Positions 7,803 through 50,100 of a DNA stretch of 64,000 nucleotides are shown here, one piece after another. Position 1 is the first letter of the stretch, and each line of letters begins with the position of its first letter. The DNA comes from Patiria pectinifera (lineage: Eukaryota; Echinodermata; Asteroidea; Valvatida; Asterinidae), in NCBI GenBank assembly GCA_029964075.1, contig CM057148.1:23925916-23989915 (forward strand), written 5' to 3'. A model generated the notes under the pieces. It was not told the origin of the DNA. It made no database searches and worked only from the letters and a program-made list of their open reading frames with translations. A program made the translations under genes and the position numbers.

Positions 7803-7930
7803 CCCTTTAGTGACTTAGCCCTAGCTTGAGTAACTCCAGCTGACATGCTCATAATCTTTTGTAAGAAATTGTTGCATAAGGATATAATACCGAGTGTCCT
7901 TCATACTGCATGTTTCTTAAATCATATTAC

Positions 7931-8245
7931 ATTCATTCTGTGGCGGATCCTGTCAAGATTCTAGATTTTCGTGTGAAATACTATGACAAAATATAACACG
8001 AAATTTCATTGCAATACAATGTGTTTATCTTGAGTTCCCAATTTCACAATAACTGTGTTGACACGACGAGAAAATACGGAGTTTCTTTTGTACTGCAATT
8101 TCCTTAAATTATATTACATTCATTCTTCGGCGGTTCCTGTCAAGATTCTAGATTTTCGTGTCAAATACCATGACGAAATATTACAGAATATTTCATTGCA
8201 ATACAATGTGTTTATCTTGAGTTCCCAATTTCACAAAAACTGTGT
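7931..8245. repeat. ~190-bp tandem repeat, two units (unit 2)
   Basis: Same repeat as at 127-630, with two units instead of three. This accounts for most of the length difference between the duplicated segments. Confidence 0.85.
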
Positions 8246-10068: not shown

Positions 10069-13000
10069 CTGGGGGTAAATGAGAAGCATTAGCATGTCCA
10101 TTTAGCTAAACAAATATTTTAAGCATACCTAAAACTGTGACACGTAAGTAATTTTGCACCTCTAGGCTCTACTGCCATCACAAACATGCTACACGGTTAC
10201 CTATACCGCGCGACTGTGCAGTGAACGTTGCACTGGACTTGACATTGACTCACCGAACATTGTGCAGAAACGTAAAGTGAAATAACTTTATTTTTAACAT
10301 AAATACTCTGTCTATGCAGTCTGATTTTAATATTCATGAAAGTTTAGTAATTTTCAAAGTTTGGTTATATTTTATTTAAGTGCTTCAAAGACTGTGCATG
10401 CCCTGTGCCGTTTGAGGAGTCCTGAATAATTCATATTGGCTGCGCCCTCAAGCGGCCGTAGATGGTCTTTCTACATGTTTGCAGGGTGACTGATCACATG
10501 AACATAAAATCAACAACTTACAAAGCATGTTTCTTGCAGTGAGACTTTCCTTGTGCTGTCTTGCTCGACTTGACCAGTCCGTCGCTTTGCGAGAGGGCAG
10601 GAAGCTCCTGCAGACCACAGAGGGTGCTGTCTTCATGAACTGCAGTCATCAACTCCTGCATTCAGGTGATCAGGGAAAATAGACATAAAACTTATAGCTT
10701 TGAAATAAGGCTAGAGTCAATTCCACCATTAAAAAAATCAAGCAATTCGTCAGAAGTAAAGGATATGATTCTCCTGTCTTTAACAAACAATGGATCTGGG
10801 GTTCCATACCTGTGGATTAGCTTCTTGTCCCGGGATTCTGCAAAGCGTTTCATCCACATTCTCTAGCTGAGTGCCCTCTGACGTCATCTCTCTTACGTCA
10901 GACACCAGTGCGCAGTCACAGAGCCAAGGATTGCCAGAGAGATCCACTGAGCTCCCAGGGGCCAAGATGACCGGTAGCCCGCCCTCAATTGTCTGGAGAT
11001 TGTTATCTGCGATGTCCAGGCGGGAGAGCCTCCTCGTGCGGTCGTGCTCGGGAATGCGGAACGTGTCCAAAATGTTCCGCTTCAGAGAAAGCTGAGTCAA
11101 GTCTGGTAGGGAGGTTAGCAGGGCAGCCGGCACACGCGCAAAGCGATTCCCTCTCAGATTCAGCACGTTGAGTGACGTCAGAACATCCAGCCAATCACAG
11201 GTGGTCTCGTCCAGCTCGTTGTCCGCCATGTTGAGTTCGAGGAGTGAGTCGAATCCCAGGAAGGCGCCATAATCAACCTGATGGAGAAAGTTTCCACTCA
11301 GATCTAAGCTCTGGACGTTAGATGCGTCTGAGAATGCTCTCTCCTGTAGGCTTGCGAGTCTGTTTCCGTGTAAAGACAGGGCTACTAATCTTCTCAATCC
11401 TCTTAGAAAAGAAGCTTGGATGACAGAAATCTCATTTTCTGCCAGATTCAGCATCTTCACAAAGGGTGCTCCCTTAAACATATCAGGTGTCAATTCCCTC
11501 AGATGATTACCCCTCAGGAATAACCAGGTTAGTTTCGACATGCTGTAAGCTGGACCGACGCTGAAGGCACCTGGTTCAATCTCTGAGATTTCATTATTGT
11601 CAAGCCGCAGCGAGGTCAAACTCTCGAGTCCGCAGAACGTGTGTGCTTGGAGGCGCCGCAATGCATTGTTGGTAAGATCTAGAATCTCCAGGCCTGTCAA
11701 ACCACGTAAAGAACCTGGAGGCAATACTGATATTTCGTTACCGTCCAGGACGAGTTCTTGAAGAGAGGGGAGCTGGCCAAAAGTATTACCTGTAATTTCA
11801 CTCAGCTTATTAGAGCTGGCGATCAGTATTCTGAGATCGGTGCAGTTCTCGAATGTCTCCTTATTCAGCTCTGTCAGGGAATTGTGGGATACGTTCAAGT
11901 ACTGTAGAACAGATACTGGTGAGAACATGGATTCGCCCAGCGCGATCAGGTTATTACCGGATAGATCCAGCTCCAACAGGTTCGTCAGGTAGATAAAGAC
12001 CGACTGAGGAAGCTGTTGCATTCTGTTGTTCTTCAGTGAAACAACTTTGAGGTTGGAGTTCATTGCAAAGAAATTTTCAGGAAGACTTTCAACTTTGTTG
12101 TCGTCAAGAATCAGCTGTTGGAGCCCTACTAGGTCAACCAAGAGTTCTTCGGGAAGATGGTCCAGACGATTGTGAGACATATTCAGGAAGCGAAGATGAG
12201 AGAGACCTTTCAGCGATCTCGGCGAGAGAGACTCCAGCAAATTGGCACCAAGGTCCAAGTCCAGCATGTTGGTGTTGTTGATGAAGCTTCCTTCTGGCAA
12301 AGTTCGGATGTGATTGCCTGATAGGTACAATCTCATGAGACTCTGTACATTGTGCAGAGCGTCTTGAGGTAGCGCTCTCAATCGGTTAGCCTTAATGGAG
12401 AGTATCTCCAGATCTTCTAATCCCACGAAGCTACCGGGCTCGAGGTCTGTGATCTTATTGCCGCGTATGTCCAGATGCACCAGCCCCGCCCCATTCGCGA
12501 ATGTCCCAGGCGGGATTCGTTTGATGCGTGATTCCTCTTCACCGTCTGGTTCTACAGTCGTCTCTCCAAAGCTAGTCATGTCATAATCAATAATGTCCAT
12601 TCGCGAATCGTCCCCGATCAAGAGCAGATATCTGACTCCTGCAGCAGAGAAAACAGGAAAGGACACCATGATTAAGTCACTTTGAGAATTGACGTTTCTT
12701 TCGATCTTCGTGACCTTTACCCAACAGTTTAATTCTACCGCCCTTCCCAGCCTTTATGAAGCAGGATCGGGAAAAACCAGCTTAGTTTCCTTGTGTACTT
12801 GATAATTTAACCCCAAAACAAAGAGAAGAAGTGTGTTTCAATCGGCTTCTTTACCCCATATGTAATTTGGTTCAATTATTCACAATAGCCTCTGGCGCAT
12901 GCTGTTACGTTTAGCAGTCCTATTCAAATTGACATGTTACATTTGCCATTGCTTTGCTTACCAGGCAAAATTGGAGTCAGTAAATTGAGGCATCATTAGG

Positions 13001-13459
13001 AAGTCATTTATTCAACCTTTTGTCGGTTTTCAAGACAATTGAATTGTTGACAGGCGATTTAAAATGTTGCTTCGAATCTGAGGCCCAAGGTTTGAACTTG
13101 AGCCCGAACGCATCTTCGAACTGCCAAATCGGCGGCAATATAGGGGGGAGGAACTTATCTACCCCATCCCCGAATTGTCACCAATAAAATAAATTAATAC
13201 CTGACAGCAGCTCTGTGGGTACCTCCCTCTTCCCCCAACACACCGCTGCCCCCGCCCCCTCCTTCCAGTCAAACATCGCCGCGTAATTCTGCAGCCGACG
13301 GGACACGGCGAGTAGGCGCTTGGACACCGTGACGCAGCGGCACTTCATGGGGCAGCTGCGGGGTTGGGCCCCGGGGAGAGGGCGGCTCTGGGCACGCTGG
13401 GTGAGACTGATGACGGAGAGCACGAAACACAAAAAGGTTGCTGATGTGGTGATACGCAT
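9306..13459 (-). CDS. LRR-trypsin-fold pseudoprotease fusion, copy 2
   Basis: Tandem paralogue of the gene upstream. Coding exons, minus strand: 13459-13201, 12638-10810, 10655-10522 and 10068-9306. Each has exactly the same length as in copy 1 (259, 1829, 134, 763), giving 994 residues. Differences are scattered substitutions. In the LRR exon they include EPGSF for EPDSF, SPRSLKG for SSRSLKD, YLTNLL for YLKKLL and TFCGLE for TFYGLE, plus QEANPQ for QETKQQ at the exon end. In the protease-like exon they include CGIANAV for CGMANDV. The inactivating changes (TLRC, GNMGGALV) are shared, so inactivation came before the duplication. Equal exon lengths, intact splice sites and no stops argue that both copies are functional rather than one being a pseudogene. 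Confidence 0.85.
10810..12638 (-). CDS. Copy 2 LRR exon
   Basis: Same 1829-base length as the copy 1 LRR exon and the same ~21-repeat solenoid with LRRCT (NPWLCDC). The donor context is changed (ccacag|gtatgg), altering the last residues to ANPQ, but the GT is kept. Substitutions include Leu/Ile swaps at solenoid positions and a new cysteine (TFCGLES for TFYGLES). That cysteine is not obviously paired and could be exposed. Confidence 0.87.
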
Positions 13460-13563
13460 TGCTGCACCAGATTCGTGATAATCCTGTATGAAAACCAAAA
13501 ATAAGGAAGAAAGAACATAACAGAAATATGAACACATAAAAGGAGTTCCAAGTTACATCACAT

Positions 13564-13695
13564 ACACTGCAAAAACTGCAGTGTTAATTTAACACCATTC
13601 GGTATCTATATAGGACAACACCAGTGAAGTTTAACACCAGATGGTCTTTTATGGATACCAATGGTGTAAATTTAACACTCCAGTTTTTGCAGTGT
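13564..13695. mobile_element. 132-bp MITE, copy in unit 2
   Basis: Orthologous insertion of the element at 5947-6078, with the same termini and length and a few substitutions (ctgcagtg for ctgtagtg). Confidence 0.85.
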
Positions 13696-13704
13696 GCAGT
13701 GATG

Positions 13705-14148
13705 TGCATTGAAACGCCGCTATAACGAACATCGTGGGATCCACAGAAAGTGTTCGTAATAACGATCGTTCGGTAAAGTGAATTTTAAACCGCCGGATCA
13801 TCCCTCTTTTGACCATTTCCCACATCCCGCGGCCGCACGAGGAGTCGTCACGAAACTTAAGCAATGGTTTTCCCTTTTATTCCTTGGGGAAATAGTAGCC
13901 ATCTTTCGCTGTTCAACATTTCAAAAAAGATGTAACTATGGGTCGTTTGATGTTCGGGAATTAAAAGTGGCCCAAATAGTGTTTAATACATGTACATGTA
14001 CAACCGGTAGATTTTTTGGTATCTGTTGCCTTTTTTTCAACAACGATGTTCGGTACGTGTTGTACATTAAAATCGGGAGCCAAGGATGATGTTCGGTATA
14101 GCCGAATGTTCCGTATGACGGTGTTCGGTATAGCAGCGTTCCACTGTA
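13705..14148. mobile_element. ~445-bp MITE, copy in unit 2
   Basis: Orthologous copy of the element at 6088-6532, with the same ends (gccgctataacgaacatc and tagcagcgttccactgta). Confidence 0.8.
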
Positions 14149-14335
14149 TCAATTGATATTGTAAAAACCCAGAGAGTGTATTGCAGACTATTTTTCTTGC
14201 CGCAGATCTGAGGACGGAAACTGGTCGTAGGTTCGAGTCCCATCCAAGACAAATTGGGATTGCTGTCTTGTGTGCAAGCCCCGCCCTCACAGCGTGTGAC
14301 CACCCCCCCCCCTCCCATGGGAGGGGCCAGGTATC

Positions 14336-16480
14336 TCGAAAACACATTAAATGCCGATTACCACTCCCAAAAGCAATATGGTGATACAATCGGTACAAGC
14401 CGTGGATAACAAAATCATTCCAGAATGTAATGACTTCATAATTGGTTAATAATAAATGGATAATCAGCTTTATCTTAATCCGCGACACCTGATAATATTC
14501 TATAAGTGCATCGTAATCCATAATTTATTAATCGGCAATGTGTAATAATTAGACCATCACATCGAGTCATCAACTCATCATCATGAACATAAAGTTTCAC
14601 TTGTCTCAATGTTTTGTAAATACATGTATTTCATATCTGTCAAGTTTTTTTAATGGAAAATCACCCTTAGCAAGGCTATAAAACCCCCTCTTGACAGAGG
14701 GCTAGAAAGAAGAACGAATATGATGAAAAGAAAAATGATAATCAGGAAAGCTGGAGGTAGGAATTGATATTCCTCTCATAAGAGGCTAGATCATAGAATG
14801 GAAGGAAACAGCGACTATAGTGAAGAAGGCCCAAAGAGATACAAAACATGGGAAAGGCTATTAGAGTAGTTCTTTGTTCTACATCTCGGCACAGCTAGAG
14901 TGTAAGGGGGAGAGGAAGCAGAGAGCCTGGTTGCACGCTCACAGTGACCGAGAAGGAACCAAGTCAAACAAAGTACATGTAGAATATGTTTAGTTTCTAT
15001 GTATACTCCTTCAGAGATTACTGTCAGTGAAAGAAAACCAAGACAAGGCAAGCCTGTAGTAAAGTTGGTCCCAGAGCGAACAAAATTGTATTCCGTTGAT
15101 TCAGAATGGCTTTCACTGGAAGTGTTTCCATGCATGTGATCTACACAAATTTAGCCCATTCATTGGCTGTGCGGTAATCCTATTGCAGACTTTTGAACCA
15201 AAGTGAGACTTAAGCTAGTCTCATTCGGGGAGACAGACAGTCAGTCAGTTAGTCAGTCAGTGAGTCAGGCTGCATCCGAATCAACTGTCTAGAGCTACAG
15301 TCCTGGCCAAATCTCGCTGGGCCCCCAACCCCCCGGCCCCCGCCCAATGTTGTCTCTCATTGCGCGGTGTGTGCTCTATCAGCTGAAGAGAACAACATTG
15401 GCCGCGGGAGCGGGGGAATTGGTGACCGTGGCAGGCTCAGGAAGTGTCCCAACCATTTTGGCCGGGATTGTAGGTCTAGGTCCGCGCCCATTGAAAATAC
15501 GCGGGGACGCGCTGACAACTGACGTAAAGCTGTAGCTCTGGAAGCCTGTTTTGGACACGGCCTCAGTCAAGTGCAAAGACGTGGGATATACGTCCCCTCT
15601 TGCATCAGTAAAAATCAAAGCCAGCTCTGATTATTGTATCCAGAGAAGCTTATTGTTCACGTAATGAGTTTTGCAAATAAATTTGCCTAGCCTGCATGTC
15701 TTTTTGTAGAGCTCGTATCAGCAGCTCTACACTGTAGAACATGTTAATTACCTGTGACGTCACGCCGACAGGCATCAGCTAGGCAACCCAAATATTTAAG
15801 TATTTTTGGCATGTTGTTTGGCCCATTTTAAACAGATGAATCAATATTGTTAAACCATTCATATTTCAAGAGATACTCATGCAGTGCAGAAGGGAACAGT
15901 TTGCTGAACATTGACATCACCATAATGACCACAACATCCAACTTTGCACTAAGTCATTATGTGTGAACAGCGGTGACTTTGCAACTTCATGTATACGTGC
16001 ATTCCCTCTACCTCACGATAAGAAACTTCCTGAATGAGCTAGATCTACTTCCGAGGCAATCTCTAATCTCTTTATTAGTCAGAACCCGATGTGTTCATCT
16101 CCGATTCACATTTACTGGATTGAATTCTACTTTCCAACTTGAAAGGTTTCTTTCTCCCTGCACGGGCGCCTGTTTATTCACCGAAGGATTAACTGAACAG
16201 TGAAAGTCCTTCAATTGTTGCATGAATAAACATTTCCATTGACACACAATTTGCACAGGTAGTTCTTGGATTACTGGAAGTCACACAGTGAAGGGGTGAT
16301 GTGACTTGCAGTCGGACAAGTCGAGAGGTTGCAGCAATCATGGTGAGTTTTTTGTTCCAAGATGACTTGATTCGATGGATTTTGAATTGGGATGAGGGAC
16401 AGCCTTTAGCAAATGTGATTATGTGGCTCCAACGGTCCTGTATTCCATAGCATACTGTTACTTGTTTATTCCAAAGTCTC
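14336..16480. other. Intergenic stretch
   Basis: No exon recognised. It contains a GTCA/GTCAGT microsatellite at about 15228-15270. A ~110-bp segment near 15060-15175 recurs at 22430-22520 (ttccgttgattcagaatggc and tttagcccattcatt). Confidence 0.6.
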
Positions 16481-26488: not shown

Positions 26489-26494
26489 TTCGAC
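26489..26494. repeat. Left target-site duplication TTCGAC
   Basis: Direct copy of 39088-39093, immediately outside the TATGGCG terminus of the giant foldback element. Confidence 0.65.
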
Positions 26495-26985
26495 TATGGC
26501 GTGTCAAACGTTGCAATATTCAATATTTTGCAATATAGTATGTTGGATGTTCAATATGTGTTTGTTATCTTTTACATTTATGTGCGATGTTCAATATAAG
26601 TGTGCGATGTTTTTCATTATTTGCGCGATGTTTAATATATTTGTGCGATGTTTTACAATATATGTGCGATGTTCAATATATGTGTGCGATGTTTTACATT
26701 TATATGCGATTTTCAATTTATATGTGCGATGTTTTGACGATATACCTATATGTGCGATGTTTTCAATATTATGTTCGATTTTTTGCATTAAATGTGCGAT
26801 GTTTTTCGATGCAATTGTGTGTGTTGTTTTACAATATATTTGCGATATTCTCAAATATGTGAGCAATGTTTCACACATATGTTTGACATTTCGAGCTATT
26901 TGTTTTCGATGTTTCATCGGTATGTTTGCATTCGATCTTTTGCAATATGCATTTGATATTTCCCTTTTCATTCGATGTTTCTTTA
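26495..26985 (+). repeat. Outer left satellite, GTGCGATGTT monomers
   Basis: Degenerate ~21-bp repeat built on tgtgcgatgttttacaatat. It stays open in two + frames, which gives Cys/Met/Phe/Tyr-rich translations, but these are repeat artefacts. The first 371 bp are the inverse of the right terminus. Confidence 0.85.
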
Positions 26986-27111
26986 AGAGTCAAAGTCTGG
27001 TTACTAGACCGCGAAAGTCTGACTTTTTTTGCCTAAAGTCAGTGTATGAGACGTCAGGGGATCGCGTAAAGTGATTAGAGCCAGACCTAAACGGTAAAAA
27101 CGGAATTGAGG

Positions 27112-27623
27112 CAACCTCGTCCCCAGGGTGTCGAGCAGTACGCGCCCACCACTACCTGCTCTCACCCTGGTATTGGATCATTTGCATGTGCAAGATTTTT
27201 GCAGACGTATGCAAATGAGGAACAGTCTGGTGCCTGGATATGCGTTACACATTAGCGTTTGTTTTTGTATGCGGTGTCTGGGGTAAAAACAGAGTCAATT
27301 CGTAGCAGCGCGAGCACGGCGTGAGTTACGAAAACACGATTTTTGAAATCAAACTGTTACGATCTTATCAAGACAACAGGCAGTATCATATTTCATATTA
27401 ATATGAGCAAATTGGAAAGGAAATTAGTATTTTCGAGAAGGCGTGGACGAATGATCGCGAAAACACGTACTGCACGTTGTGAATATATAGCACCAAGTAC
27501 ACGATAAAAATCCATTACTAGCCAATTGCGGTATCCAATCAGGATACAGGAAGAAAGTTTCCTATCCAGGGTTTACTATTGGAAACGCGGTTGGAAATAA
27601 AGTAAGCACTGGGGACGAGGTTG
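27112..27623. mobile_element. ~510-bp element, CAACCTCGTCCCCAG termini
   Basis: The exact 15-bp terminus caacctcgtccccag at 27112-27126 is inverted at 27609-27623 (ctggggacgaggttg). No coding is seen. It is nested in the left-arm-only segment of the giant foldback element. Confidence 0.7.
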
Positions 27624-27929
27624 GAATTGAGGGTACTTCTTTGAAACCAGCACACACACGGAATCTGCAATGTCTTCAGAAATAATGATAGCATCATTTT
27701 AATAAAGTTTTATTGTTGCCAAATGTGCGTGGGTGTGGGTGTATGGGTTGTTGGCTGAGCGCATGGGAGCATTTTTATTTTGTTCGCTTGTTTTCTTTGA
27801 TTTTTTTTAAATTATTTAAATATTAAATTCCTTTGTGTGGGGTGGGCGTGGTTATGTTGAAAAGGGTGGGGAGGAAATGTTTCTTGGTCATTGAAGGTTT
27901 TACTTAGAAGGCTCATGTCTTTAAAGGAT

Positions 27930-28020
27930 ACCCCCATCCACCCCCACCCCATCCCCACCCCTAACCAACCACCCACACCGAGTACCCCCTTCAACAATAA
28001 CAACACCCCCCCACACCACC
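27930..28020. repeat. C-rich low-complexity tract
   Basis: Runs of cccca/ccacc with almost no G on the + strand. Simple sequence, not coding. Confidence 0.8.
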
Positions 28021-28030
28021 ACCACCACCA

Positions 28031-28225
28031 TTCCAGTGAGGGTTACGTTTCACAAAGGTTGCCCTCCGTTAGGGTTACGATCCGTTAGGGTTGCCTCCCG
28101 TTAGGGTTACGATCTGGTAGGGTTGCCTACCGTTAGGGTTACGGTCCGGTAGGGTTGCCTCCCGTTAGGTTACGATCCGGTAGGGTTGCCTCCCGTTAGG
28201 TTACGATCCGTTAAGGGTGCTCTCC
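28031..28225. repeat. Telomere-like minisatellite (GTTAGGGTT units)
   Basis: About six imperfect ~31-bp units alternate gttagggttacgatcc and gttagggttgcctcc. Each contains TTAGGG or TAGGG. An interstitial array, not a telomere. Confidence 0.75.
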
Positions 28226-29035
28226 ATTATTTTTATACCCCCCGGTAGGGTTGAAGTCGGCCTGAGCTAGGCTAATATTACTGTACCTCGTTAAGTCTGA
28301 ATATCATGTACATGTACATCAATAATGCACTTTGGATGAGGCTATGCCCTATCCAGGCCTTATATATTCTGTTCACAATCCAGAAAACTGTCTCCCAAAG
28401 CTAGTTTTTGTCTCTCTATCGACTTCTACGACGAACGTAAACAAAAAAAACTGTATTCAAGTCCCCCGCCCGCATGAGTACTGGAGGCCGCCATTTTGAA
28501 ATATATAGGGTCCACTGTACTAATTCAAGCCCCATTGAAAACAGTGTAAAATCAACAAAGTTCAGGGCCAAGTAACATGCAAGCCAACATCACTGGGGTT
28601 TCTGAAACAAAAATTTAATTATTGTCTTAATTGTCTTTCATCTTTTCATTTCTTTTCAATTTTACGTACCGTAGCCAATTACATTTTTAAATATTCACAC
28701 CCAAATAAAATCACCTGCCGAAAAGTGATAGTTCCCGAGCCTGCATGTAGCCATTTGAAGAGTGGCACCCTTCCACTTTCACAGGCAAATAGGACCCATT
28801 TCTTCGTCCGTGATTTTATCAAGCCTTCCCTCAGATGGAAGCCCCAAAACCAAGGAGTTGATCCTTGGGTATATTTAAACAATTCCACCGTTTTTAAAGC
28901 CAAACGGTCTCCGTTTTCAAAAGAAATTGTGGGGGCACTTTTTATGCTAATCAGCTGGCGTAGAAATTCTCGCTTGAATTAGGTCTGTGCACCCTATAAA
29001 CAGATTGATTTTTATTACCTGGCACAACATGAATA

Positions 29036-29315
29036 CATTACTGGACCAAGCCCAGTCTAATGTGGCTTTCTTAGCTGTTGGTAGCTTTCCAGCACTTAAC
29101 TAGCGCATCACTCATCACTCAAATCTGATGAGAGGCAGGCTGGCTCTAAACAACAGACGCATATACATTGGGGATAGCCTGAGTGCTTATCAAGAACATA
29201 TTTTATGGTCATCAACTGATTAAATAGCCATTATCTTAGTAGGGGGCTCATGAATACGAACCCGGGATTCACGGGTTCGCGAAAGCCACATTAGACTGGG
29301 CTTGGTCCAGTAATG
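29036..29315. mobile_element. ~280-bp MITE
   Basis: attactggaccaagcccagt at the left is inverted at the right (gactgggcttggtccagtaat), and the match continues inward (ctaatgtggctttc). It lies in the left-arm-only segment of the giant foldback element. Confidence 0.8.
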
Positions 29316-29519
29316 AATCATACGCAATGCGTTCATCATTGTTTGGGCAGTACCCCCAGCTGTGCCTGTACTACCCATAGTAGTGTTATGTGCATCATCT
29401 ATGCATTGAGGAGTGCATGACACATGGTCTGAGCTCCAAGGCCGATGTGCACCTGTCCCGTTTAATGATCCAGTTACCTGATAATTTGTTAGCATAAGCT
29501 GATAGGCAAAATTAGATGC

Positions 29520-30535
29520 TTATGAAAAAAATCAAATTGTAAGGGGTTAACCTTGCATTTTTTTTTAGCAAAATCGGGAAAAATCAGATGTTTCTGGAAA
29601 ATTGCAGATTGTATGGGGTTAGATGTTTATGAAATATTTCAAATTGTAAGGGGTGAACATTGCATATTTTAGCGAAATTGGGCAAAATCAGATGTTTCCG
29701 AAAAATTTCAGATGTAAGGCATTAAGGCCAAAAAAAGTCTCCGCTTTCTGGTATGCGCGCGCGTCGCCGTAGCCATGCGCGTCGGCAAAATGAAAAAGTT
29801 TTTTTTTTTTCAATGAACGATGATGTCTCAAAACCGCCAAACTCACTGGTTTGACTGGAATCGTGCTGCTGCAAAATTTTAACGTGTTTTTAGATGGGGT
29901 TATGATCGAGAATAAGCTTTATGTGGCCTCTCTGGTCTCCCATAATATTTGCACTAAGTTTAGTCGGGCACCATTTGCAGTCATCAGCCGACATTTGAAG
30001 CAAAAAAAAAACAGGTAAAAAAAAAAAAAAGCCGCGTCGCCGCACCACTTTTTGGGCAAGCTCCATACCAGAAACCGGAGACTTTTTTTTTGGCCTAACC
30101 TTGCTTTTTTAGTGAAATTTTGCAAAGTTAGATGTTACGAAAAATTTCAAATTGAAAGGGATTAACCTCACATTTTTTTAAAAGCGAAAATGGGAAAAAA
30201 TCAAATGTTTCTGGAAAATTCAAATTGTAAGGGGTTAACCTTGCATTTTTTTTTGCAAAATAGGACACAATCAGATGATTCTGGAAAATTGCAGATTGTT
30301 AGGGCTTAAACTTGTATTTCTAGCAAAATTGGGCAAAAAGAAATGTTTATGAAAAATTTTAAATTGTAAGAGGTGTACATTGTATATTTAGTAAAATATG
30401 GCCAAATCAGATTTGTATGAAAAATCTAAAATGGTAAGGGGTTAACCTTGCCTTTTTAGCAAAATTTGGAGCATATTAATTGTTACTAAAATTGGGCAAA
30501 TTCAGATGCTTCTAAAAAATCCAGATGTAAAGTTT
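29520..30535 (+). repeat. Left outer block of ~66-bp repeats
   Basis: Units of the form gtaaggggttaaccttgcat..agcaaaattgggcaaaatca. The block is interrupted by a MITE at 29722-30098. The last ~300 bp recur at about 36110-36405 and, inverted, at 38345-38690. Confidence 0.85.
29722..30098. mobile_element. 377-bp MITE nested in the 66-bp repeats
   Basis: Starts ttaaggccaaaaaaagtctc and ends gactttttttttggcctaa. It splits a 66-bp unit, so it is younger than the array. Its TTAAGGCC ends are shared with the element at 46042-46305. Confidence 0.8.
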
Positions 30536-32572
30536 CCGCAAAACTGAACAGCTGTTGAAAAAGAGCCCAATGTTGAACTTTACTGAGTCTGAGGTCTATC
30601 GAGGGGACGATCCTTATTTCAACTCCCGGAGATTCGCTGACAGTCTCTATTTTTCTTTTTAAGAAAGTCGAAATAGCTGAAGAGGGAGGTGAGTATCTAT
30701 ATGTGCCCAGATACAAAGAGTAGAAATCTACGCGTCTGCCTTTTGAAAATACACAATTGCGGTGTTCATTGTTGCGTAATGATCCGCCTAGCACACGACT
30801 GTTTTGCACATTAGGCTGTGTTATGCAGCTTCCTAACAAACCAAACACACTGGGCTCATTATATCGACTTGTTTTTACCCATTAAGGTAAAGCAAATGGA
30901 CCCAGTAATCTTCCTGGCGCCTTTGCTCACCTATAAAGACAACTTACTTTTCTCAGTTTAAGGAAAATTCTACCGTAACGAAATGGCCGAGTGGTTACGA
31001 TTCGTCGTCCACGGTTAGCGGGGTCCCGGGTTCGAATCCCGCTGGTGTCTTTTTTGGTTTTTAACGTATGAGTTCAATTATTTACTATAAGAGATTTAAT
31101 TTCCCGTCGTAAAGTACCAACGGTACCTTAGCTTAATCGGTAAGCACTGCTGCTGGTACTGTCCGCGAGTTCCAGGTTGGCGCCTTCGTACAGGTTCAGG
31201 GCATGTGGTCCACTCGGAGGATCAGGGCTTAGGGGCCGCCCTGTTCCTCCCTTAGCTCTTTGCTTTTACATGGTGCCTGGCCCTCCGGGGTTATATGGAT
31301 GGATAGGGAAGGAAGTGTGTATTGGTCGGGGACACCGAGACCCCGGAAGAGAACTAAGGGATCGGCTGGGGCATTGTTATGGCTCAGACCGATCCCTGAA
31401 AGCTTGACTAGCACATAACTTTTTGATTTTTTTTACCCTCTATCTTTTATACTTTGGTTTAGTTTGATATCTACAGCTGCTCGGCAGGTCTACGGGTAGT
31501 ATCAAAATTGAAACAAAGGTGTATGTCATAAATCAATGAATATTTTATAATTGACTATAATCAAAACGGAGTTTCGTTTGATCAATTTGACTATCATTAT
31601 TAAATTATACCAGGAAAGAATAAAGATGTACATTGTAATATAAATATTATTCATACATCTTTCAAATAACGTGTCTTTAATTGTGAGCATTCCAAACAAT
31701 ACAGTAATTCGCAATGGTATTAGAATGGTATGTGATAGCACGATCAATGCGTCTCTATTACATTTAAAAATATATAATTTAGGTCCCTATGTGTGACATT
31801 TTCTTTGATTGACTATGAACATTCCATACGAATGAGTTAATTCGCAAAATATAGCAACAGCAAATGAGAAAGGAAAAAGAGAAAATTCCTTTACCCTAAA
31901 AACTGGGAAAACAATGTGTTTAAAAAAAGTCAAATGGGACACTTCATGTATTGATTTAACAGTTTGCAAGGAGTTAGCCTTACATTTTAGCAAAATTGGG
32001 AAAACTCAGCTGTTTCTGGAAAATTGCAGCTTGTAAGGGGTTAACCTTGCATTTTTAGTAAAATTGAGATGTTTATGAAACATTTCAAATAGTAAGGGGT
32101 GAACCTTGCATTTTTTAGCGAAATTGGGCAAAATCAGATCTTTCTGGAAAATTTCAGATTGTAAGGGGTGGTAAATTTGGCAAAATAAGATGTGTATGAA
32201 AAATTTCAAATTTTAAGGGGTTAACCTTTCTTTTTTAGTAAAATTGGGAAAATTTAAATGTTTATGAAAAATTTCAAATTGTCAGTGGTTAACCTTGCAT
32301 TTTTTAGCTGAATTGGGCAAAATCAGATTTGTATGAAAAATCAAAAATTGTAAGAGGTTAACCTTGCCAAATTAGGGCAAAATCAGATGTTTCTGGAAAA
32401 TTGCAGATTGAAAGGGGTTAACCTTGCTTTTTTAAGCGAAACTGGGAAAAATCAGATGTTTCTTGAAAATTGAAGATTGTAAGGGGTTAACTTGGCATAT
32501 TTAGCTTAACTGGGCAATATCAGATTTATATGGAAAATCTCAAATTGTAAGGGGTGAACCTTGTATTTTTAG
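30230..32572 (+). repeat. Left palindrome arm (~2.3 kb)
   Basis: Matches the complement of 36418-38690 over its full length, including a ~1.4-kb non-tandem core at 30540-31950. A 76-codon open frame at 31177-31407 is identical in the other arm but has no coding hallmarks. Local indels separate the arms (for example, an extra ~40 bp at 37275-37310). Confidence 0.85.
30984..31040 (+). promoter_or_regulatory. tRNA-like A and B boxes (RNA polymerase III type)
   Basis: TGGCCGAGTGG at 30984-30994 and GGGTTCGAATCCC at 31028-31040 match the A and B boxes of Ser/Leu tRNAs. The flanking bases do not form a proper acceptor stem and the anticodon arm is poor, so this is not a working tRNA. A TTTTTT run follows shortly after. 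Confidence 0.55.
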
Positions 32573-35500
32573 CGAAATTGGGCAAAATCAGATCTTTCTG
32601 GACAATTTCAGATTGTAAGGGGTTAACCTTGCTTTTTTAGTGATATTTGGCAAAATAAGATGTGAATGAAAAATTTCAAATTGTAAGAGGTTAACCTTGC
32701 TTTTTGTAGTAAAATTGGGCAAATTTAAATGTTTATGAAAAATCTCAAATTGTAAGGGGTGAACCATGCATTTTTTTAGCAAAACTGGGCAATATCAGAT
32801 TTTTATGAAAAATCTCAAATTGTAAGGGGTGAACCTTGCATTTTTAGCAAAATTGGGCAAAATCAGATGTTTCTGAAAAAATTTCAGATGTAAGGGGGTT
32901 AACCTTGCTTTTTTAGTGCCCTAATTTGGCAAAGGTTAATGTGCATGAAAAATTTCAAATTGTTAGGGGTTAACCTTGCATTTTTTTAGCAAAATACGGC
33001 AAAACCAGGTGTTCATGAAAAATTTCAGATTGTAAAGGGTTCACTTTGCATTTTTAGCAAAATTGGGAAAAATCAGATTTGTATGAAAAATCAAAAATTG
33101 TAAGGGGTTAACCTTTGCCCAATTAGGGCAAAATCAGATGTTTCTTGAAAATTGCAGATTGAAAGGGGTTAACCTTGCATTTTGAGCAAAATTGGGCAAA
33201 ATGACATTTTTATGAAAAATCTCAAATTGTAAGGGGTGAACCTTGCATATATTAGCACAATTGGGAAAAATCAGATGTTTTGGAAAAAAATTCCGATGTA
33301 AGGAATTAACCTTACTTTTTTCTTTAGTGAAATTTGGTAAAATTTGGTGTTCATGAAAAATTTCAAATTGTAAGGGGTTGATTGCATTTTTTTTTTAGCA
33401 AAATAGGGCAAAATCAAATGTTTATGGAAAATATCAAATTGTAAGGGGTTAACCTTGCATTTTAGCAAAATTGGGCAAAATCAAATGTTTCTGGAAAATT
33501 TCAGCTGTAAGGGATTTTCCTTGCTTTTTTAGTGAAATTTGGCAAAGTTAGATGTTTATGAAAAATATCAAATTGTAAGGGGTGAACCTTGTATTTTTAG
33601 CGAAATTGGGCAAAATCAGATCTTTCTGGAAAATTTCAGATTTTAAGGGGTTAACCTTGCTTTTTTAGTGATATTTGGCAAAATAAGATGTGTATGAAAA
33701 ATCTCAAATTGTAAGGGGTGAACCTTGTATTTTTAGCGAAATTGGGCAAAATCAGATCTTTCTGAAAAAATTTCAAATTGTAAGGGGTTAACCTTGCTTT
33801 TTTAGTAAAATTGTGCAAATTTAAATGTTTATGAAAAATCTCAAATTGTAAGGGGTGAACCTTGCACTTTGTTTTACCAAATAGGGCAAAATCAGGTTTT
33901 TATGAAAAATGTCAGATTGTAAGGGGTTCACCTTTCTATTTTAGCAAAATTGGGAAAAATCAGATTTGTATGAAAGATCAAAAATTGTAAGAGGTTAACC
34001 TTTGCCCAATTAGGGCAAAATCAGATGTTTCTGGAAAGTTGCAGATTGAAAGGGGTTAACCTTGCACTTTTAGCAAAACTGGGCAATATCAGATTTTTAT
34101 GAAAAATCTCAAATTGTAAGGGGTGAACCTTGCATTTTTAGCAAAATTTGGCAAAATCAGATGTTTCTGAAAAAAATTCAGATGTAAGGGGGTTAACCTT
34201 GCTTTTTTAGTGCCCTAATTTGGCAAAGGTTAATGTGCATGAAAAATTTCAAATTGTTAGGGGTTAACCTTGCATTTTTTAGCAAAATACGGCAAAACCA
34301 GGTGTTCATGAAAAATTTCAGATTGTAAAGGGTTCACTTTGCATTTTTAGCAAAATTGGGAAAAATCAGATTTGTATGAAAAATCAAAAATTGTAAGGGG
34401 TTAACCTTTGCCCAATTAGGGCAAAATCAGATGTGTCTGGAAAATTGCAGATTGAAAGGGGTTAACCTTGCATTTTAAGCAAAATTGGGCAAAATGACAT
34501 TTTTATGAAAAATCTCAAATTGTAAGGGGTGAACCTTGCATATATTAGCAAAATTGGGAAAAATCAGATGTTTTTGAAAAAAAATCCGATGTAAGGAATT
34601 AACCTTACTTTTTTCTTTAGTGAAATTTGGTAAAATTTGGTGTTTATGAAAAATTTCAAATTGTAAGGGGATAAGATTGCATTTTTGTTAGCAAAATAGG
34701 GCAAAATCAGATGTTTATGGAAAATTTCAAATTGTAAGGGGTTAACCTTGCATTTTAGCAAAATTGGGCAAAATCAGATGTTTCTGGAAAATTTCAGCTG
34801 TAAGGGATTATCCTTGCTTTTTTAGTGAAATTTGGCAAAGTTAGATGTTTATGAAAAATCTCAAATTGTAAGGGGTGAACCTTGTATTTTTAGCGAAATT
34901 GGGCAAAATCAGATCTTTCTGGAAAATTTCAGATTTTAAGGGGTTAACCTTGCTTTTTTAGTGATATTTGGCAAAATAAGATGTGAATGAAAAATTTCAA
35001 ATTGTAAGGTGTTAACCTTGCTTTTTTAGTAAAATTGTGCAAATTTAAAGGTTTTTATGAAAAATGTCAGATTGTAAGGGGTTCACCTTGCATTTTTAGC
35101 AAAATTGGGAAAAATCAGAGTTGTATGAAAGATCAAAAATTGCAAGAGGTTAACCTTTGCCCAATTAGGGCAAAATCAGATGTTTCTGGAAAGTTGCAGA
35201 TTGAAAGGGGTTAACCTTGCATTTTTAGCAAAACTGGGCAATATCAGATTTTTATGAAAAATCTCAAATTGTAAAGGGTGAACCTTGCATTTTTAGCAAA
35301 ATTGGGCAAAATCAGATATTTCTGAAAAATTTCAGATGTAAGGGGGTTAACCTTGCTTTTTTAGCACAATTGGGAAAAATCAGATTTGTATAAAAAATCA
35401 AAAATTGTAAGGGGTTCACCTTTGCCAAATTAGGGCACTAAAAAAGCAAGGTTAACCCCCTTACATCTGAAATTTTCAGATGTAAGGGGGTTAACCTTGC

Positions 35501-36417
35501 TTTTTGTAGTAAAATTGGGCAAATTTTAATGTGCATGAAAAATTTGAAATTGTTAGCGGTTAACCTTGCATTTTTTAGCAAAATACGGCAAAACCAGGTG
35601 ATCATGAAAAATTTCAGATTGTAAAGGGTTCACCCTGCATTTTTAGCAAAATTGGGAAAAATCAGATTTGTATGAAAAATCTACGATTGTAAGGGGTTAA
35701 CCTTGCCAAATTAGGGCAAAATCAGATGTTTCTGGAAAATTGCAGATTGAAAGGGGTTAACCTTGCTTTTGTAGTAAAATTTGGCAAAATAAGATGTGTA
35801 TGAAAAATTTCAAATTGTAAGGTGTTAACCTTGCTTTTTTAGTAAAATTGGGAACATTTAAATGTTTATCAAAAATTTCAAATTGTCAGTGGTTAACCTT
35901 GCATTTGAAAAATCTACGATTGTAAGGGGTTAACCTTGCATTTTAAGCAAAATTGGGCAAAATGAGATATTTATGAAAAATCTCAAATTGTAAGGGGTGA
36001 ACCTTGCATATATTAGTAAAATTGGGCAAAATAAGATGTTTCTGAAAAAAATTCCTATGCAAGGAATTAACCTTACTTATTTTTTAGTGAAATTCGGTAA
36101 AAATCAGATGTTTATGGAAAATTTCAAATTGTTAGGGGTTAACCTTGCATTTTTTTAGCAAAATAGGACACAATCAGATGATTCTGGAAAATTGCAGATT
36201 GTTTGGGCTTAACCTTGTATTTCTAGCAAAATTGGGCAAAAAGAAATGTTATGAAAATGTTTAAACTGTAAGAGGTGTACCCTGTATATTTAGTAAAATT
36301 TGGCAAAATCAGATTTGTATGAAAAATCTAAAATGGTAAGGGGTTAACCTTGCTTTTTTAGCAAAATTTGGAGCATATTGTACTAAAATTGGGCAGAATC
36401 AGATGTAAAGTTTCCGC
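32573..36417 (+). repeat. Central spacer of ~66-bp repeats
   Basis: About 55-60 forward-orientation units. A ~1.29-kb higher-order duplication is visible: 33271-33468 and 34564-34761 and their surroundings align at an offset of 1293. A small local inversion occurs near 35425-35500. At about 36410 unit orientation reverses. Confidence 0.85.
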
Positions 36418-38690
36418 TAAAAATACAAGGTTCACCCCTTACAATTTGAGATTTTTCATATAAATCTGATATTGCCCAATTATGCTAAAAATGCCAAGTT
36501 AACCCCTTACAATCTTCAATTTTTAAGAAACATCTGATTTTTCCCAATTTCGCTTAAAAAAGCAAGGTTAACACCTTCGAATCTGCAATTTCCCAGAAAC
36601 ATCTGATTTTGCCCTAATTTGGCAAGGTTAACCCCTTACAATTTTTGATTTTTCATACAAATCTGATTTTGCCCAATTTTGCTAAAACTGCAAAGTTAAC
36701 CCCTTACAATCTGAAATTGTCCATAAACGCCTGATTTTGCCCTATTTTGCTAAAAAATGCAAGGTTAACCACTGACAATTTGAAATTTTTGATAAACATT
36801 TAAATGTTCCCAATTTTACTAAAAAAGCAAGGTTAACACCTTACAATTTGAAATTTTTCATACACATCTTATTTTGCCAAATTTTACTACAAAAGCAAGG
36901 TTAACCCCTTACAATCTGAAATTTTCCAGAAAGATCTGATTTTGCCCAATTTCGCTAAAAAATGCAAGGTTCACCCCTTACAATTTGAAATGTTTCATAA
37001 ACATCTCAATTTTACTAAAAATGCAAGGTTGTACCCCTTACAAGCTGCAATTTTCCAGAAACATCTGATTTTTTCCAATTTTGCTAAAATGTAAGGTTAA
37101 CCCCTTGCAAACTGTTAAATCAATACATGAAGTGTCCCATTTGACTTTTTTAAAACAAATTATTTTCCCAGTTTTTTAGGGTAAAGGAATTTTCTCTTTT
37201 TACGTTATTTGAAAGATGTATAAATAATATTTATATTACAATGTACATCTTTATTCTTTCCCGGTATAATTTATGGCGTTTCTTACGTCAATTGGCAATC
37301 GCGTCATTATATAATGATAGTCAAATTGATCAAACGAAACTCCGTTTTGATTATAGTCAATTATAAAATATTCATTGATTTATGACATACACCTTTGTTT
37401 CAATTTTGATACTACCCGTAGACCTGCCGAGCAGCTGTAGATATCAAACTAAACCAAAGTATAAAAGATAGAGGGTAAAAAAAATCAAAAAGTTATGTGC
37501 TAGTCAAGCTTTCAGGGATCGGTCTGAGCCATAACAATGCCCCAGCCGATCCCTTAGTTCTCTTCCGGGGTCTCGGTGTCCCCGACCAATACACACTTCC
37601 TTCCCTATCCATCCATATAACCCCGGAGGGCCAGGCACCATGTAAAAGCAAAGAGCTAAGGGAGGAACAGGGCGGCCCCTAAGCCCTGATCCTCCGAGTG
37701 GACCACATGCCCTGAACCTGTACGAAGGCGCCAACCTGGAACTCGCGGACAGTACCAGCAGCAGTGCTTACCGATTAAGCTAAGGTACTGTTGGTACTTT
37801 ACGACGGGAAATTAAATCTCTTATAGTGAATAATTGAACTCATACGTTAAAAACCAAAAAGACACCAGCGGGATTCGAACCCGGGACCCCGCTAACCGTG
37901 GACGACGAATCGTAACCACTCGGCCATTTCGTTACCTTGGAATTTTCCTTAAACTGAGAAAAGTTGTCTTTATAGGTGAGCAAAGGCGCCAGGAAGATTA
38001 CTGGGTCCATTTGCTTTACCTTAATGGGTAAAAACAAGTCGATATAATGAGCCCAGTGTGTTTGGTTTGTTAGGAAGCTGCATAACACAGCCTAATGTGC
38101 AAAACAGTCGTGTGCTAGGCGGATCATTACGCAACAGTGAACACCGCAATTGTGTATTTTCAAAGGCAGACGCGTAGATTTCTACTCTTTGTATCTGGGC
38201 ACATATAGATACTCACCTCCCTCTTCAGCTATTTCGACTTTCTTAAAAAGAAAAATAGAGACTGTCAGCGAATCTCCGGGAGTTGAAATAAGGATCGTCC
38301 CCTCGATAGACCTCAGACTCAGTAAAGTTCAACATTGGGCTCTTTTTCAACAGCTGTTTTTGTGGAAACTTTACATCTGGATTTTTTAGAAGCATCTGAT
38401 TTTGCCCAATTTTAGTAAAATATGCTCCAAATTTTGCTAAAAAAAGCAAGGTTAACCCCTTACCATTTTAGATTTTTCATACAAATCTGATTTTGCCAAA
38501 TGTTACTAAATATACAAGGTACACCTCTTACAATTTAAAATTTTTCATAAACATTTCTTTTTGCTCAATTTTGCTAGAAATACAGGGTTAAGCCCTATAA
38601 GAATCTGCAATTTTACAGAATCATCTGATTGTGTCCAATTTCGCTTAAAAAATGCAAGGTTAACCCCTTATCATTTGAAATTTCATAAAC
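36418..38690 (-). repeat. Right palindrome arm (~2.3 kb)
   Basis: Inverse of 30230-32572: reverse 66-bp units at 36418-37130, single-copy core at 37130-38345, and reverse units again at 38345-38690. The tRNA-like boxes appear inverted at 37870-37882 and 37916-37926. Confidence 0.85.
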
Positions 38691-38722
38691 ATTTCAAAAA
38701 CATTTCAAAACTTTCATAAAAA

Positions 38723-39087
38723 TGCTCACATATTTGAGAATATCGCAAATATATTGTAAAACAACACACACAATTGTATCGAAAAACATCGCACATTTAA
38801 TGCAAAAAATCGAACATAATATTGAAAACATCGCACATATATATCGTCAAAAACATCGCACATAAATTGAAAATTGCATATAAATGTAAAACATCGCACA
38901 CATATATTGAACATCGCACATATATTGTAAAACATCGCACCGATATATTAAACATCGCGCAAATAATGAAAAACATCGCACACTCATATTGAACATCGCA
39001 CATAAATGTAAAAGATAACAAACACATATTGAACATCCAACATATATATTGCAAAATATTGAATATTGCAACGTTTGACACGCCATA
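38723..39087 (-). repeat. Outer right satellite (inverse of left)
   Basis: Complement of 26495-26865 with few differences. It joins directly to 66-bp repeats at about 38720, unlike the left arm. Confidence 0.87.
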
Positions 39088-39093
39088 TTCGAC
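39088..39093. repeat. Right target-site duplication TTCGAC
   Basis: Direct copy of 26489-26494, immediately outside the inverted CGCCATA terminus. Confidence 0.65.
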
Positions 39094-39257: not shown

Positions 39258-39530
39258 TACACTGAAAAATTGCCTGGGTTAATTTTACCAAAGAAAGGGT
39301 GAAAACTGGAACTACCCAAACTTGGGTTGTTCTATAACCATGTTTGGTTATAATTTATGTTAAATTCAACCAAAAGTTGTAGTCATACAAGACCAATTTA
39401 ACAAGTTTTGGTTGAATTTAGCTGAAATTCTAACCCAAACAATTGGTTATAGAACAATTAACCCAAGTTTGGGTAGTTCCAGTTTTCACCCTTTCTTTGG
39501 TAAAATTAACCCAGGCAATTTTTCAGTGTA
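39258..39530. mobile_element. 273-bp MITE, TACACTGAAAAATTGCC termini
   Basis: A nearly perfect hairpin: tacactgaaaaattgcctgg at the left, inverse at the right ending ggcaatttttcagtgta. TA sits at both ends. Confidence 0.88.
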
Positions 39531-47100: not shown

Positions 47101-50100
47101 TTACACCATTAACACGCACAACTACACAGGCTTAAAGGGAAAATACAACATTTGCAAACATAAAAAAATAAAACTACCAAATCATTTTGAAATACCTTGC
47201 TGGACTGTTAGTGAATGACAGTGTAAAGCATCCTGTAAAATCATGGCACCTGGTATACTGTCATTTTCAAGAAAAGTCGTATTTTTGTATCAATTTCCAA
47301 CGCTGGTCGGCCGACCAGCGTTGGAAAAAAACTGGCTTTTTTTCAAATACTGGCCCCAGTTGACCATCGCACTTGTTTGCAATTGATTACACACCTATGA
47401 ATGGGTACAAGCCAGCTAGACTGGTTCCCTGACCTTACAATTCCCCAATGTATGTAAACTGCTCTGTTTCTTCTTATATGGAGTCAGGGAACCAGACTAC
47501 AGGAAAATGATTGTTTTTCTTGGCTTTTATAGCATTTTCGAACCCAAAACCTCAAATAAGTCAGTGTAACTATATTTGCTATATATTTCCAACCCCCCAA
47601 TTCCATCCATTTCTGATAATTACAGCAAAAGCAAATGATGTATATTCCCTTTAATAATATTTTGGGTGTAATGCCATTATTTTCCTAAAACAAAAGACCA
47701 ATTAGCATTCGGAATCAAGTTTGTCTTTCTTCTTTTCTTCCACTTTTTGTCCATGTTCCAGGACCCCCATGGCAGACATGTGAAAACCTATGAGATCAAC
47801 CTGAGAGAGAAGGAGTTCAACAAGGGGCCCTGGAAGCAGGATAATGTTGAGACAGAAGCCAGTATGGTAGTCACTGTGCCCAAACCGTGTGGTGGCGCCC
47901 TCATCATCGGACAAGAGTCCATCACCTACCACAATGGGGATAAATACGTCGCTATCGCACCACCGAGCATAAAGGTAAATTTGTGTGGAGTGCTGTGGCC
48001 TCGTGGTTAAGGGCATTGGATTCGTGGTCTGCGGGTAAAGCTGCAGGTTGTGGGTTCGAGTCCAGCCTGGGGTCATGGTGCGTGTGCCCTTGGGCAAGGC
48101 ACTTTGTCACTCATTGCTTCTCTCCACCCAGGAGTAAATGGGTACCTGTGAGGGCAGAGATGGTTATTGTGATTGAATTTATAGCTTCCTTGCGCTGAAC
48201 AGGCTGCATCGAGCTGTATACTCCACAGGGAGCTGAGATGGTATTTGGAATGTTTAAATGGCCCAATGATCAGGGGCAGTAATAATGTAAAGTGCTTTGA
48301 TCGTAGTTAAAAGCGCTATATAAGAACCCGTTATTATTATTATTATTATATTTCCATGAATGATAAAACCATCACATTTTGAGCACATCTTTCAACATAA
48401 GCTGGGGCTGCATAAAAATGCATACCCGTGTCTGAGGCATACTGGCAAAAGTAAAACAGAACTGGGCACAGGCCGTACCAGTGTTGTAGGACTTGAGTCC
48501 AGGACTCGGACTCGAGTCACATTTTTCGTGACTCGGACACGACACGAGTCGCATTGGAAAATGACTCAGATTCGGACTTGATCATTGGACTCGAGCTTGG
48601 TGACTTGTGACTCAAAAAAACCTAACGTATAGGGATGGGAAAGGCTCATTGAGGAATAATGTTTGGATGATAAAACATGGAGGGAAGGGATGGAGGAGGG
48701 TTTTAAAGGGATGGGAATTAAAAGCAAAACACATGTTGGGTCTAAAAATTAAATATGTACACACACAAAGTAAAGCTATATACATGTACACTGGGATTTA
48801 CTTAAAAGACAGAATGGATGATTGAACAATAATTTTAAAAAAATTTGATTAGTTTGGTGAACAACTAAGAACAAGTGACTCGTGACTCGGACTCGAGGCT
48901 TGTGACTTGAGACTCGGACTCGATGCTTATGACTCGAGACTCGGACTCGAGGCTTGTGACTCGAGACTCGGACTTGAGGCTTGTGACTTGTGACTCGGAC
49001 TCGAGGCTTGTGACTCGAGACTCGGACTCGAGGCTTGTGACTCGAGACTCGGACTCGAGGCTTGTGACTCGAGACTCGGACTCGAGGCTTGTGACTCGAG
49101 ACTCGGACTTGATGCTTGTGACTTGAGACTCGGACTTGATGCTTGTGACTCGAGACTCGGACTCGAGGCTTGTGACTCGAGACTCGGACTTGATGCTTGT
49201 GAATCGAGACTCGGACTCGATGCTTGTGACTCGAGACTCGGACTCGGACTCGAACTCGAGGCTTGTGACTCGAGACTCGGACTCGAGGCTTGTGACTCGA
49301 GACTCGGACTCGATGCTTGTGACTCGAGACTACTGGGACTCGGACTCGAGGCTTGTGACTGGAGACTCGGACTCGAGGCTTGTGACTCGAGACTCGGACT
49401 CGAGGCTTATGACTCGAGACTCGGACTTGAGGGTTGTGACTTGTGACTCGGACTTGACGTTGGTGACTCGACTACAACACTGGGTCGTAGTGAAGAAAAA
49501 TGCAAAAATCTAAAAAAAAAATGAATTAGTTTGGTTAACAACTAAGAGCAAGTGACTCGTGACTCGAGGCTTGTGACTGCAGACTCGCACTCAGACTTGA
49601 GGCTTGTGACTTGAGACTCGGACTCGGACTCGAGGCTATACCTGTGGTTCTTTTTAGAACCTTTCTCTTAGTTGAGAAATTATTCGCACATGGTGTTTCC
49701 GCAAACCTTTCATTATTCAAAAATCTAAAAGCAGACAACAATTGTTGGTTCATCTCAGGCAAGTACTCTGGTTTGCCACGGTCGGCTAGACTCGGACGGG
49801 TCTCGCTATCTCCTGGGTGACATGGCTGGAAGACTGTTCCTGTTGCATCTTGAGAAGGAAGAATCTATGGACGGGGTACTCATCGTCAAAGATCTCAAAG
49901 TGGAACTACTGGGAGAGGTAAGATGTAGTGATGGGACAGAAGTTCAAAATATAACTGTAATAGGGCGTAGCCAAATATATACAGAATGTTTTAATATTCT
50001 ATCATCCATTGAATATCCGAATAGCATGTTTTGATTCAAATTTTGGAGGATTTTAAAGAATGCAACCGAAGATGTATGATGTGGCTGATGACATACTTTA

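Follow-up and report, generated by a model that had tools for sequence, protein, structure and literature searches.

The locus considered here raises the question of whether a long mirror-image structure, lying in a 64-kb stretch of the genome of the starfish Patiria pectinifera (assembly GCA_029964075.1, contig CM057148.1; this whole stretch is called the window below), was brought there by transposition and, if so, by what kind of transposon. The structure occupies positions 26495-39087 of the window, 12.6 kb in all, and its mirror-image ends are made of short-repeat arrays. The preliminary description regarded it as a very large, apparently non-autonomous foldback mobile element with a 6-bp target duplication, a view that is supported here and that nothing found contradicts. 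The structure is best read as a single insertion of a large non-autonomous cut-and-paste foldback transposon, most likely of the IS3EU/GingerRoot superfamily, a reading to which we give a probability of roughly 70%.

The sequence TTCGAC, earlier noted on both outer sides of the element, is indeed present in direct orientation as exact copies at positions 26489-26494 and 39088-39093. The flank match is restricted to these 6 bp, the left flank reading ccggacTTCGAC and the right one TTCGACcagcta. Two 6-mers at the spacing of the element were identical by chance at 22 of the 50872 positions tested. A screen of maximal inverted pairs of at least 12 bp, less than 15 kb apart, yielded 1297 pairs in the window. 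The present pair alone is bordered by exact direct repeats of 6 bp; the chance expectation over the whole set is about 0.5 cases. The evidence for a target site duplication is strong for this particular pair (P ~4e-4), not as a stand-alone window-wide search. Under the insertion reading the empty site is expected to be ccggacTTCGACcagc, with a single TTCGAC.

The inward termini had been described as identical, and this identity was found to extend over 43 bp, the left tip (26495-26537, + strand) starting with TATGGCGTGTCAAACG. In the whole window this sequence occurs without mismatch only twice, at 26495-26510 (+) and 39072-39087 (-); when up to three mismatches are allowed there are four matches, with a chance mean of 0.52, and four or more were reached in 0 of 100 shuffles. 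The end sequence usable as a genome query is TATGGCGTGTCAAACGTTGCAATATT. Inverse satellite arms of ~370 bp were also confirmed: the left outer arm (26495-26865, +), built of ~20-bp tandem repeats with the core ATGTGCGATGTT, is 96.5% identical over 372 columns to the right outer arm (38723-39087, -), which includes the right terminal inverted repeat. Realignment with cheaper gaps left 5 substitutions in 364 positions (1.37%) and 8 gap columns in 4 runs. Counted with up to two mismatches, outer-motif matches keep a single orientation per arm, + for all 13 on the left and - for all 12 on the right. On the left only, a degenerate extension of the outer repeat (26866-26990, +) holds five matches to the 10-bp core with up to three mismatches (shuffle mean 1.28), a number reached by 12 of 2000 mononucleotide shuffles. 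Repeats of 17 bp resembling the outer motif, at 6472, 14088 and 61299, were set aside, as BLAST did not link them to the element; a BLAST comparison of the element with the remaining window gave nothing beyond chance (best E 0.16).

Much of the remaining element is taken up by inner inverted arms and a 68-bp satellite. The inner inverse arms, reported as 2.3 kb long, are real but composite, being made of two aligned block pairs, 30203-31672 with 37202-38694 (94.4% over 1510 columns) and 31874-32640 with 36417-37201 (84% over 794 columns). The left inner arm (30203-31672, +) comprises 68-bp satellite at 30203-30539 and 1.13 kb of unique DNA at 30540-31672, and the right inner arm (37202-38694, -) was delimited by its alignment to it. 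The unique part differs between arms by 8 substitutions in 1120 positions (0.7%), with 51 gap columns in 6 runs. Between the aligned blocks, ~200 bp (31673-31873, +) are present in the left arm only. The main 68-bp satellite array follows at 31874-36418 (+), with a higher-order period of ~1.26 kb (82.5% over 3.2 kb); direct repeats of at least 200 bp at 93% identity were looked for in this array and not found, and the segment 36150-36405 repeats 30247-30508 at 92%. Satellite orientation turns at about 36410-36420, and the inverted block beyond (36412-37201, -) pairs with 31874-32640. Divergence between arms is higher in the 68-bp blocks (K2P 0.04-0.08) than in the remaining parts, and the arms may therefore have more than one history.

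The left arm also carries a stretch without right-arm counterpart (26991-29500), in which six frames gave no Pfam match. Three small inserts were recognized on this side. The first (27112-27623) has 15-bp inverted ends, CAACCTCGTCCCCAG, and 9-bp direct flanks, GAATTGAGG, at 27103-27111 and 27624-27632; by the length of this duplication we take it to be Mutator-like. The second (29036-29315) has 35-bp inverted ends, and the third (29726-30095) has GGCCAAAAAAAGTCTCCG inverted ends with TAA as 3-bp direct flanks. The third resembles PIF/Harbinger transposons in duplication length, that of Harbinger being 3 bp (PMC12730594). Some 2-3 kb kept in the left arm have apparently been lost from the right one, because the outer repeats continue to ~26990 on the left only and because all three inserts sit within the left-only block. 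The putative deletion site is the right-arm junction (38695-38722, -), at which the 68-bp satellite abuts the outer repeats.

This layered build makes it conceivable, though improbable, that a smaller inverted-repeat element with the 370-bp arms came first and that a 68-bp satellite palindrome of separate origin (or some other element) was later inserted or grew within it. Outer and inner repeats are unlike in sequence, inner and outer arms form separate blocks, and the passage from outer repeat to 68-bp satellite is direct on the right and spans ~2.5 kb on the left, all of which would suit such a nested history. Against it, inspection by eye of the inner block edges disclosed no second ends with a target duplication, and divergence is similarly low in the outer arms (1.4%) and in the unique inner arms (0.7%). 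Nesting is compatible with the explanation preferred here for the outer element and would alter its inner history only.

The element holds 92 open reading frames of at least 45 amino acids. Ten of them, chosen for a Pfam scan, matched no family at the cut-off; below it, two hits (E 0.23 and 0.36) were to families other than transposases. The six stop-masked frames of 26866-30202 likewise gave no family. The Pfam scan was confined to these ten reading frames, some of which represent the unique inner arm, and to 26866-30202. The absence of a transposase match in the scanned parts is as expected of a non-autonomous copy, and it leaves the superfamily assignment without support from the interior of the element. 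Two reading frames of the element compared with 5.8 billion proteins had no match (4 and 1 candidates). Rfam recorded no family at gathering score anywhere in the window; at E up to 0.5 the element had 20 matches, all under gathering score, 11 of them to microRNA models and mostly in satellite hairpins. The segment 30979-31050, which by eye resembled the head of a tRNA-derived SINE, is not put forward as one, since neither ARAGORN nor Rfam supported a tRNA. The unique inner arm had no match in a phage collection, and the 20-bp end had 0 exact matches in viral contigs, a result with no bearing on the starfish genome.

Assignment to a superfamily depends on the tips and on the duplication. Complete IS3EU families are described as always having TA..TA termini and usually 6-bp duplications, and GingerRoot as having 6-bp duplications and mostly TA..TA termini (PMC10045372); fungal IS3EU elements are reported with 6-bp duplications, inverted ends longer than 30 bp and termini TAYGG..CCRTA (PMC12730594). 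The tips of the starfish element, TATGG..CCATA, match both the TA..TA and the fungal pattern, the TAYGG signature being a fungal one and the superfamily-wide description giving TA..TA only. TTCGAC, the duplication of this one insertion, has the same 6-bp length. The window contains 81 TAYGG and 75 CCRTA sites. Among their pairings at distances of 60 bp to 20 kb, three have 6-bp flanks in common, and matching 12-bp ends occur only in the pair that bounds the element (0 mismatches vs 5 and 3). The superfamily call is based on about five terminal bases and the duplication length of one copy. With IS3EU/GingerRoot as described in the work consulted the element shares the 6-bp duplication, TA..TA termini and inverted ends of more than 30 bp (PMC10045372, PMC12730594); it departs from these descriptions in its ~370-bp tandem-repeat arms, its long inner palindromic arms and its starfish host, and no transposase was found in its scanned parts. 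In the literature consulted, IS3EU and foldback elements were mentioned together only in work on oyster satellites, where the Repbase match listed for CgiSat35 and CgiSat47 is IS3EU (PMC8268682), a precedent for a satellite that matches this superfamily.

A foldback element of some other, perhaps undescribed, superfamily making 6-bp duplications, with a coincidental fit of TATGG to IS3EU, is an unlikely source. Long inverted arms of tandem repeats are the structural mark of foldback elements, and the element has them. Among foldback elements, TU of sea urchin, also an echinoderm, and FB of the fly have arms of short tandem repeats like those seen here, and their target duplications are 8-9 bp, unlike the 6 bp of the element. 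That no transposase was seen in the scanned parts would suit another superfamily as well. Foldbacks appear for the most part to be Mutator elements, Galileo of the P superfamily being among the exceptions (PMC4079207), and 6-bp duplications are also made by some hAT families (PMC12730594). However, TAYGG occurs at 81 + strand sites per 64 kb, which puts a chance fit at the exact end at about 1 in 800, and a Mutator-type foldback was rejected, as it would require a duplication of 8-10 bp. Tetris of Drosophila virilis is similar in being non-autonomous and satellite-linked and in having inverted arms of tandem repeats, but it makes 8-10 bp duplications, has ~220-bp repeats and is placed in Mutator by its authors (PMC4079207). 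Galileo, a P superfamily element of Drosophila, has comparably long, internally repetitive inverted ends, unlike the present element in its association with a P-type transposase (PMC3688188).

The preliminary description named Polintons as known makers of 6-bp duplications, with genes and other ends. They are not the only candidates, since IS3EU/GingerRoot elements also make 6-bp duplications and have TA..TA ends. Polinton/Maverick elements resemble the element in their 6-bp duplications and in inverted ends of similar length, and differ from it, in vertebrates, in carrying many genes (PMC8097293). They were discarded on their ends, reported in vertebrates as AG or AGT motifs (PMC8097293), vs TATGG..CCATA here; Polinton core genes (polymerase, integrase, capsid) were lacking in the Pfam-scanned parts, although a gene-less derivative would lack them too. 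Dada was also discarded: it inserts with a 6-7 bp duplication inside small RNA genes, where its copies with defined ends lie, and Dada-U6 and Dada-U1 are described without terminal inverted repeats (PMC3706591), which are long here, and the window has no Rfam small RNA at gathering score.

The structure could also be immobile, namely a satellite region that became palindromic or was duplicated locally in inverse orientation, with a fortuitous 6-bp flank match, which we regard as very unlikely. Inverted duplications arise readily in DNA rich in satellites, and about 0.5 fortuitous flank matches of 6 bp would be expected over the 1297 inverted pairs. Yet the match lies exactly at the outermost ends, 43 terminal bp are identical with tips matching a known terminal signature, and the remaining window holds no match to the element beyond chance. 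An assembly artefact, in the form of an unsplit hairpin read or a collapsed repeat, can practically be dismissed, for although a 500-base N stretch near 6.7-7.2 kb of the window marks the assembly as imperfect there, a read error would yield near-identical arms without direct flanks, whereas here substitutions and indels are scattered between the arms, and three inserts, two of them flanked by target duplications, are specific to one arm.

If the insertion is of the IS3EU/GingerRoot type, an IS3EU-type transposase encoded elsewhere would recognise the TATGG tips together with the ~20-bp repeats. In Galileo, repeats within the long inverted ends serve as transposase-binding sites (PMC3688188), and the ~20-bp repeats, spaced about two DNA turns apart and in one orientation per end, are candidate stacked binding sites. 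The transposase would pair both ends, excise the element and join it to target DNA cut with a 6-bp stagger, and gap filling after insertion would duplicate TTCGAC. The 68-bp satellite may have been carried by the element and have grown inside it via unequal exchange or replication slippage. The arms were probably copied or homogenised fairly recently, because substitutions between them amount to only 0.7-1.4%, and later losses of 2-3 kb and 0.2 kb from the right arm may have produced the asymmetric palindrome.

We know of no foldback form of IS3EU. The element had been suggested to represent a new foldback class; its foldback build stands, but provided that the assignment from TATGG..CCATA and 6 bp holds, it is better described as a known transposase superfamily in foldback form. 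It probably adds a variant to a known kind of transposon rather than founding a new class. Foldback is a shape and not a lineage, with known affinities mainly to Mutator, and to P in the case of Galileo (PMC4079207), and an IS3EU-ended foldback would show that this shape has also arisen in the IS3/integrase-like branch. Should no further copies exist, the locus would be one curious insertion. The ends, the duplication length and the candidate binding arrays provide a concrete handle for finding the driving transposase. More tentatively, an IS3EU-ended foldback lineage may exist in which 20-bp binding arrays move a gene-less palindrome of at least 12 kb, which would act as carrier and nursery seeding the 68-bp satellite in the starfish. 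If this is true, satellite arrays would be seeded through IS3EU transposition, and a satellite would be linked with a mobile element that carries it, in a phylum, the echinoderms, to which the TU elements also belong.

The putative foldback element spans 26495-39087, and both of its ends carry TATGGCGTGTCAAACG, at 26495 on the forward strand and at 39087 on the reverse strand, these being the sole two exact copies in the whole window. Inverted identity extends over 43 bp counted from the tip, bearing out the matching inverted termini that the preliminary description had given for the element it placed at 26489-39093, and the inverse outer arms of about 370 bp that it reported (26495-26865 and 38723-39087) were recovered by BLAST at 96.5% identity; an alignment with cheaper gaps gave 364 aligned positions with 5 substitutions and 4 gap runs. 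The TTCGAC it had noted on both outer sides is likewise present, immediately outside each end and in direct, not inverted, orientation, as would be expected of a target site duplication. Equal 6-mers at this spacing occur at 22 of 50,872 window positions (P ~4e-4 for the TTCGAC pair). Direct 6-bp flanks were found in exactly one of the window's 1297 maximal inverted pairs, the end pair of the element, with a chance expectation of about 0.5 over all of these pairs. The duplication is convincing because it is located at the ends of exactly this structure; a blind search of the window would not single it out. The locus, one copy being known, is very likely a transposon insertion. A MITE-like insert recognized by eye (39260-39528; inverted ends CACTGAAAAATTGCC, TA flanks) sits about 170 bp outside the right end.

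IS3EU is a transposase superfamily with 6-bp duplications and TAY ends. The class of the element was taken from its ends and the duplication, since scans of parts of it revealed no coding match. In complete IS3EU families the termini are described as always TA..TA and the duplications as usually 6 bp long; GingerRoot is described as having 6-bp duplications and mostly TA..TA ends (PMC10045372, excerpt). An excerpted account of fungal IS3EU gives 6-bp duplications and inverted ends of >30 bp with the consensus TAYGG..CCRTA (PMC12730594); the termini here are TATGG..CCATA, although that consensus is fungal and the host a starfish. TAYGG has 81 sites on the forward strand of the window, so a chance fit at the exact end has a probability of about 1 in 800. 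Judged from the ends and duplication length of this one copy, the element likely belongs to IS3EU. A Mutator-type foldback is rejected on duplication length, the duplications excerpted for Tetris being 8-10 bp (PMC4079207) versus 6 bp here. Dada-U6 and Dada-U1 are described, in the portion available, as being without the terminal inverted repeats that the element has, and Dada copies with defined ends as residing in small RNA genes (PMC3706591). A Polinton is dismissed on its ends, (AG)3 or (AGT)2 in the vertebrate examples excerpted (PMC8097293) versus TATGG..CCATA. No description of an IS3EU foldback was found among the matches listed in the literature searched, whose coverage was partial.

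The outer arms are built of tandem repeats of about 20 bp with the core ATGTGCGATGTT, which has 32 matches in the window at up to 2 mismatches: 13 in the left arm (all forward), 12 in the right arm (all reverse), one in the rest of the element and six outside it. A block present only on the left (26866-30202) begins with a degenerate outer-repeat tail reaching about 26990 (5 motif matches, a number reached in 12 of 2000 mononucleotide shuffles), followed by sequence whose GC content is 44% (26991-29500), compared with 42-43% in the window's flanks. The block also holds a portion of 68-bp satellite and three small inserts, of which two have clean target duplications: a Mutator-like one at 27112-27623 (9 bp, GAATTGAGG) and another at 29726-30095 (3 bp, TAA). 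The inverted inner arms (30203-31672 and 37202-38694) contain 1.13 kb of unique sequence lying between 68-bp satellite blocks; the unique parts differ by 8 substitutions over 1120 positions compared, plus 51 gap columns. The 21-bp satellite core (up to 5 mismatches) has 84 matches in the window, 83 of them within the element (69 forward, 14 reverse). Orientation switches at about 36410-36420, and the segment just before the switch (36150-36405) repeats at 92% the block preceding the unique part of the left inner arm (30247-30508). One reversed unit forms a near-perfect short hairpin at 35437-35510, in the main array (31874-36418).

With substitutions of just 1.4% between the outer arms and 0.7% between the unique inner parts, both appear to have been copied or homogenized fairly recently. 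The 68-bp blocks align less well between arms (K2P 0.04-0.08) and may have a separate history of exchange. The remainder of the outer repeat and all three inserts fall within the left-only block, and on the right the outer repeat is joined straight to 68-bp satellite at 38695-38722; a single right-arm deletion would therefore be a simpler account than separate gains on the left. Its size would be about 3.3 kb if the inserts preceded it, or about 2.2 kb if the left arm acquired them afterwards.

Elsewhere in the window, a gene fusing leucine-rich repeats and a trypsin-like domain is tandemly duplicated at 1672-14524 (period about 7.6 kb). The leucine-rich repeat parts of both copies are 97% (592/611) identical to 'protein artichoke-like [Patiria miniata]', which carries both domains; this architecture is probably unusual. 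That identity places the origin of the window in Patiria miniata or a close relative of it. Tandem arrays include a perfect 34-bp one at 60354-60614 (7.7 copies, 100%), which is likely polymorphic and directly follows exons of a DDB1/RSE1/CPSF1-type gene, a 27-bp one at 48875-49471 (22 copies) with several open frames on both strands, and a 21-bp one at 61954-62520 (27 copies), which is open in either direction.

The tips of the element and its 20-bp arrays, each of one orientation, would be bound by an IS3EU-type transposase provided in trans, the arrays being proposed as candidate binding sites. According to an excerpt (PMC3688188), tandem repeats of this kind were shown to contain transposase-binding sites in the foldback-like P element Galileo. 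The 68-bp satellite may have grown inside the element, which is compatible with the higher-order period of 1.26 kb in the main array. A link between satellites and IS3EU would have a precedent, since two oyster satellites are given an IS3EU match in Repbase in the part of the report available (PMC8268682).
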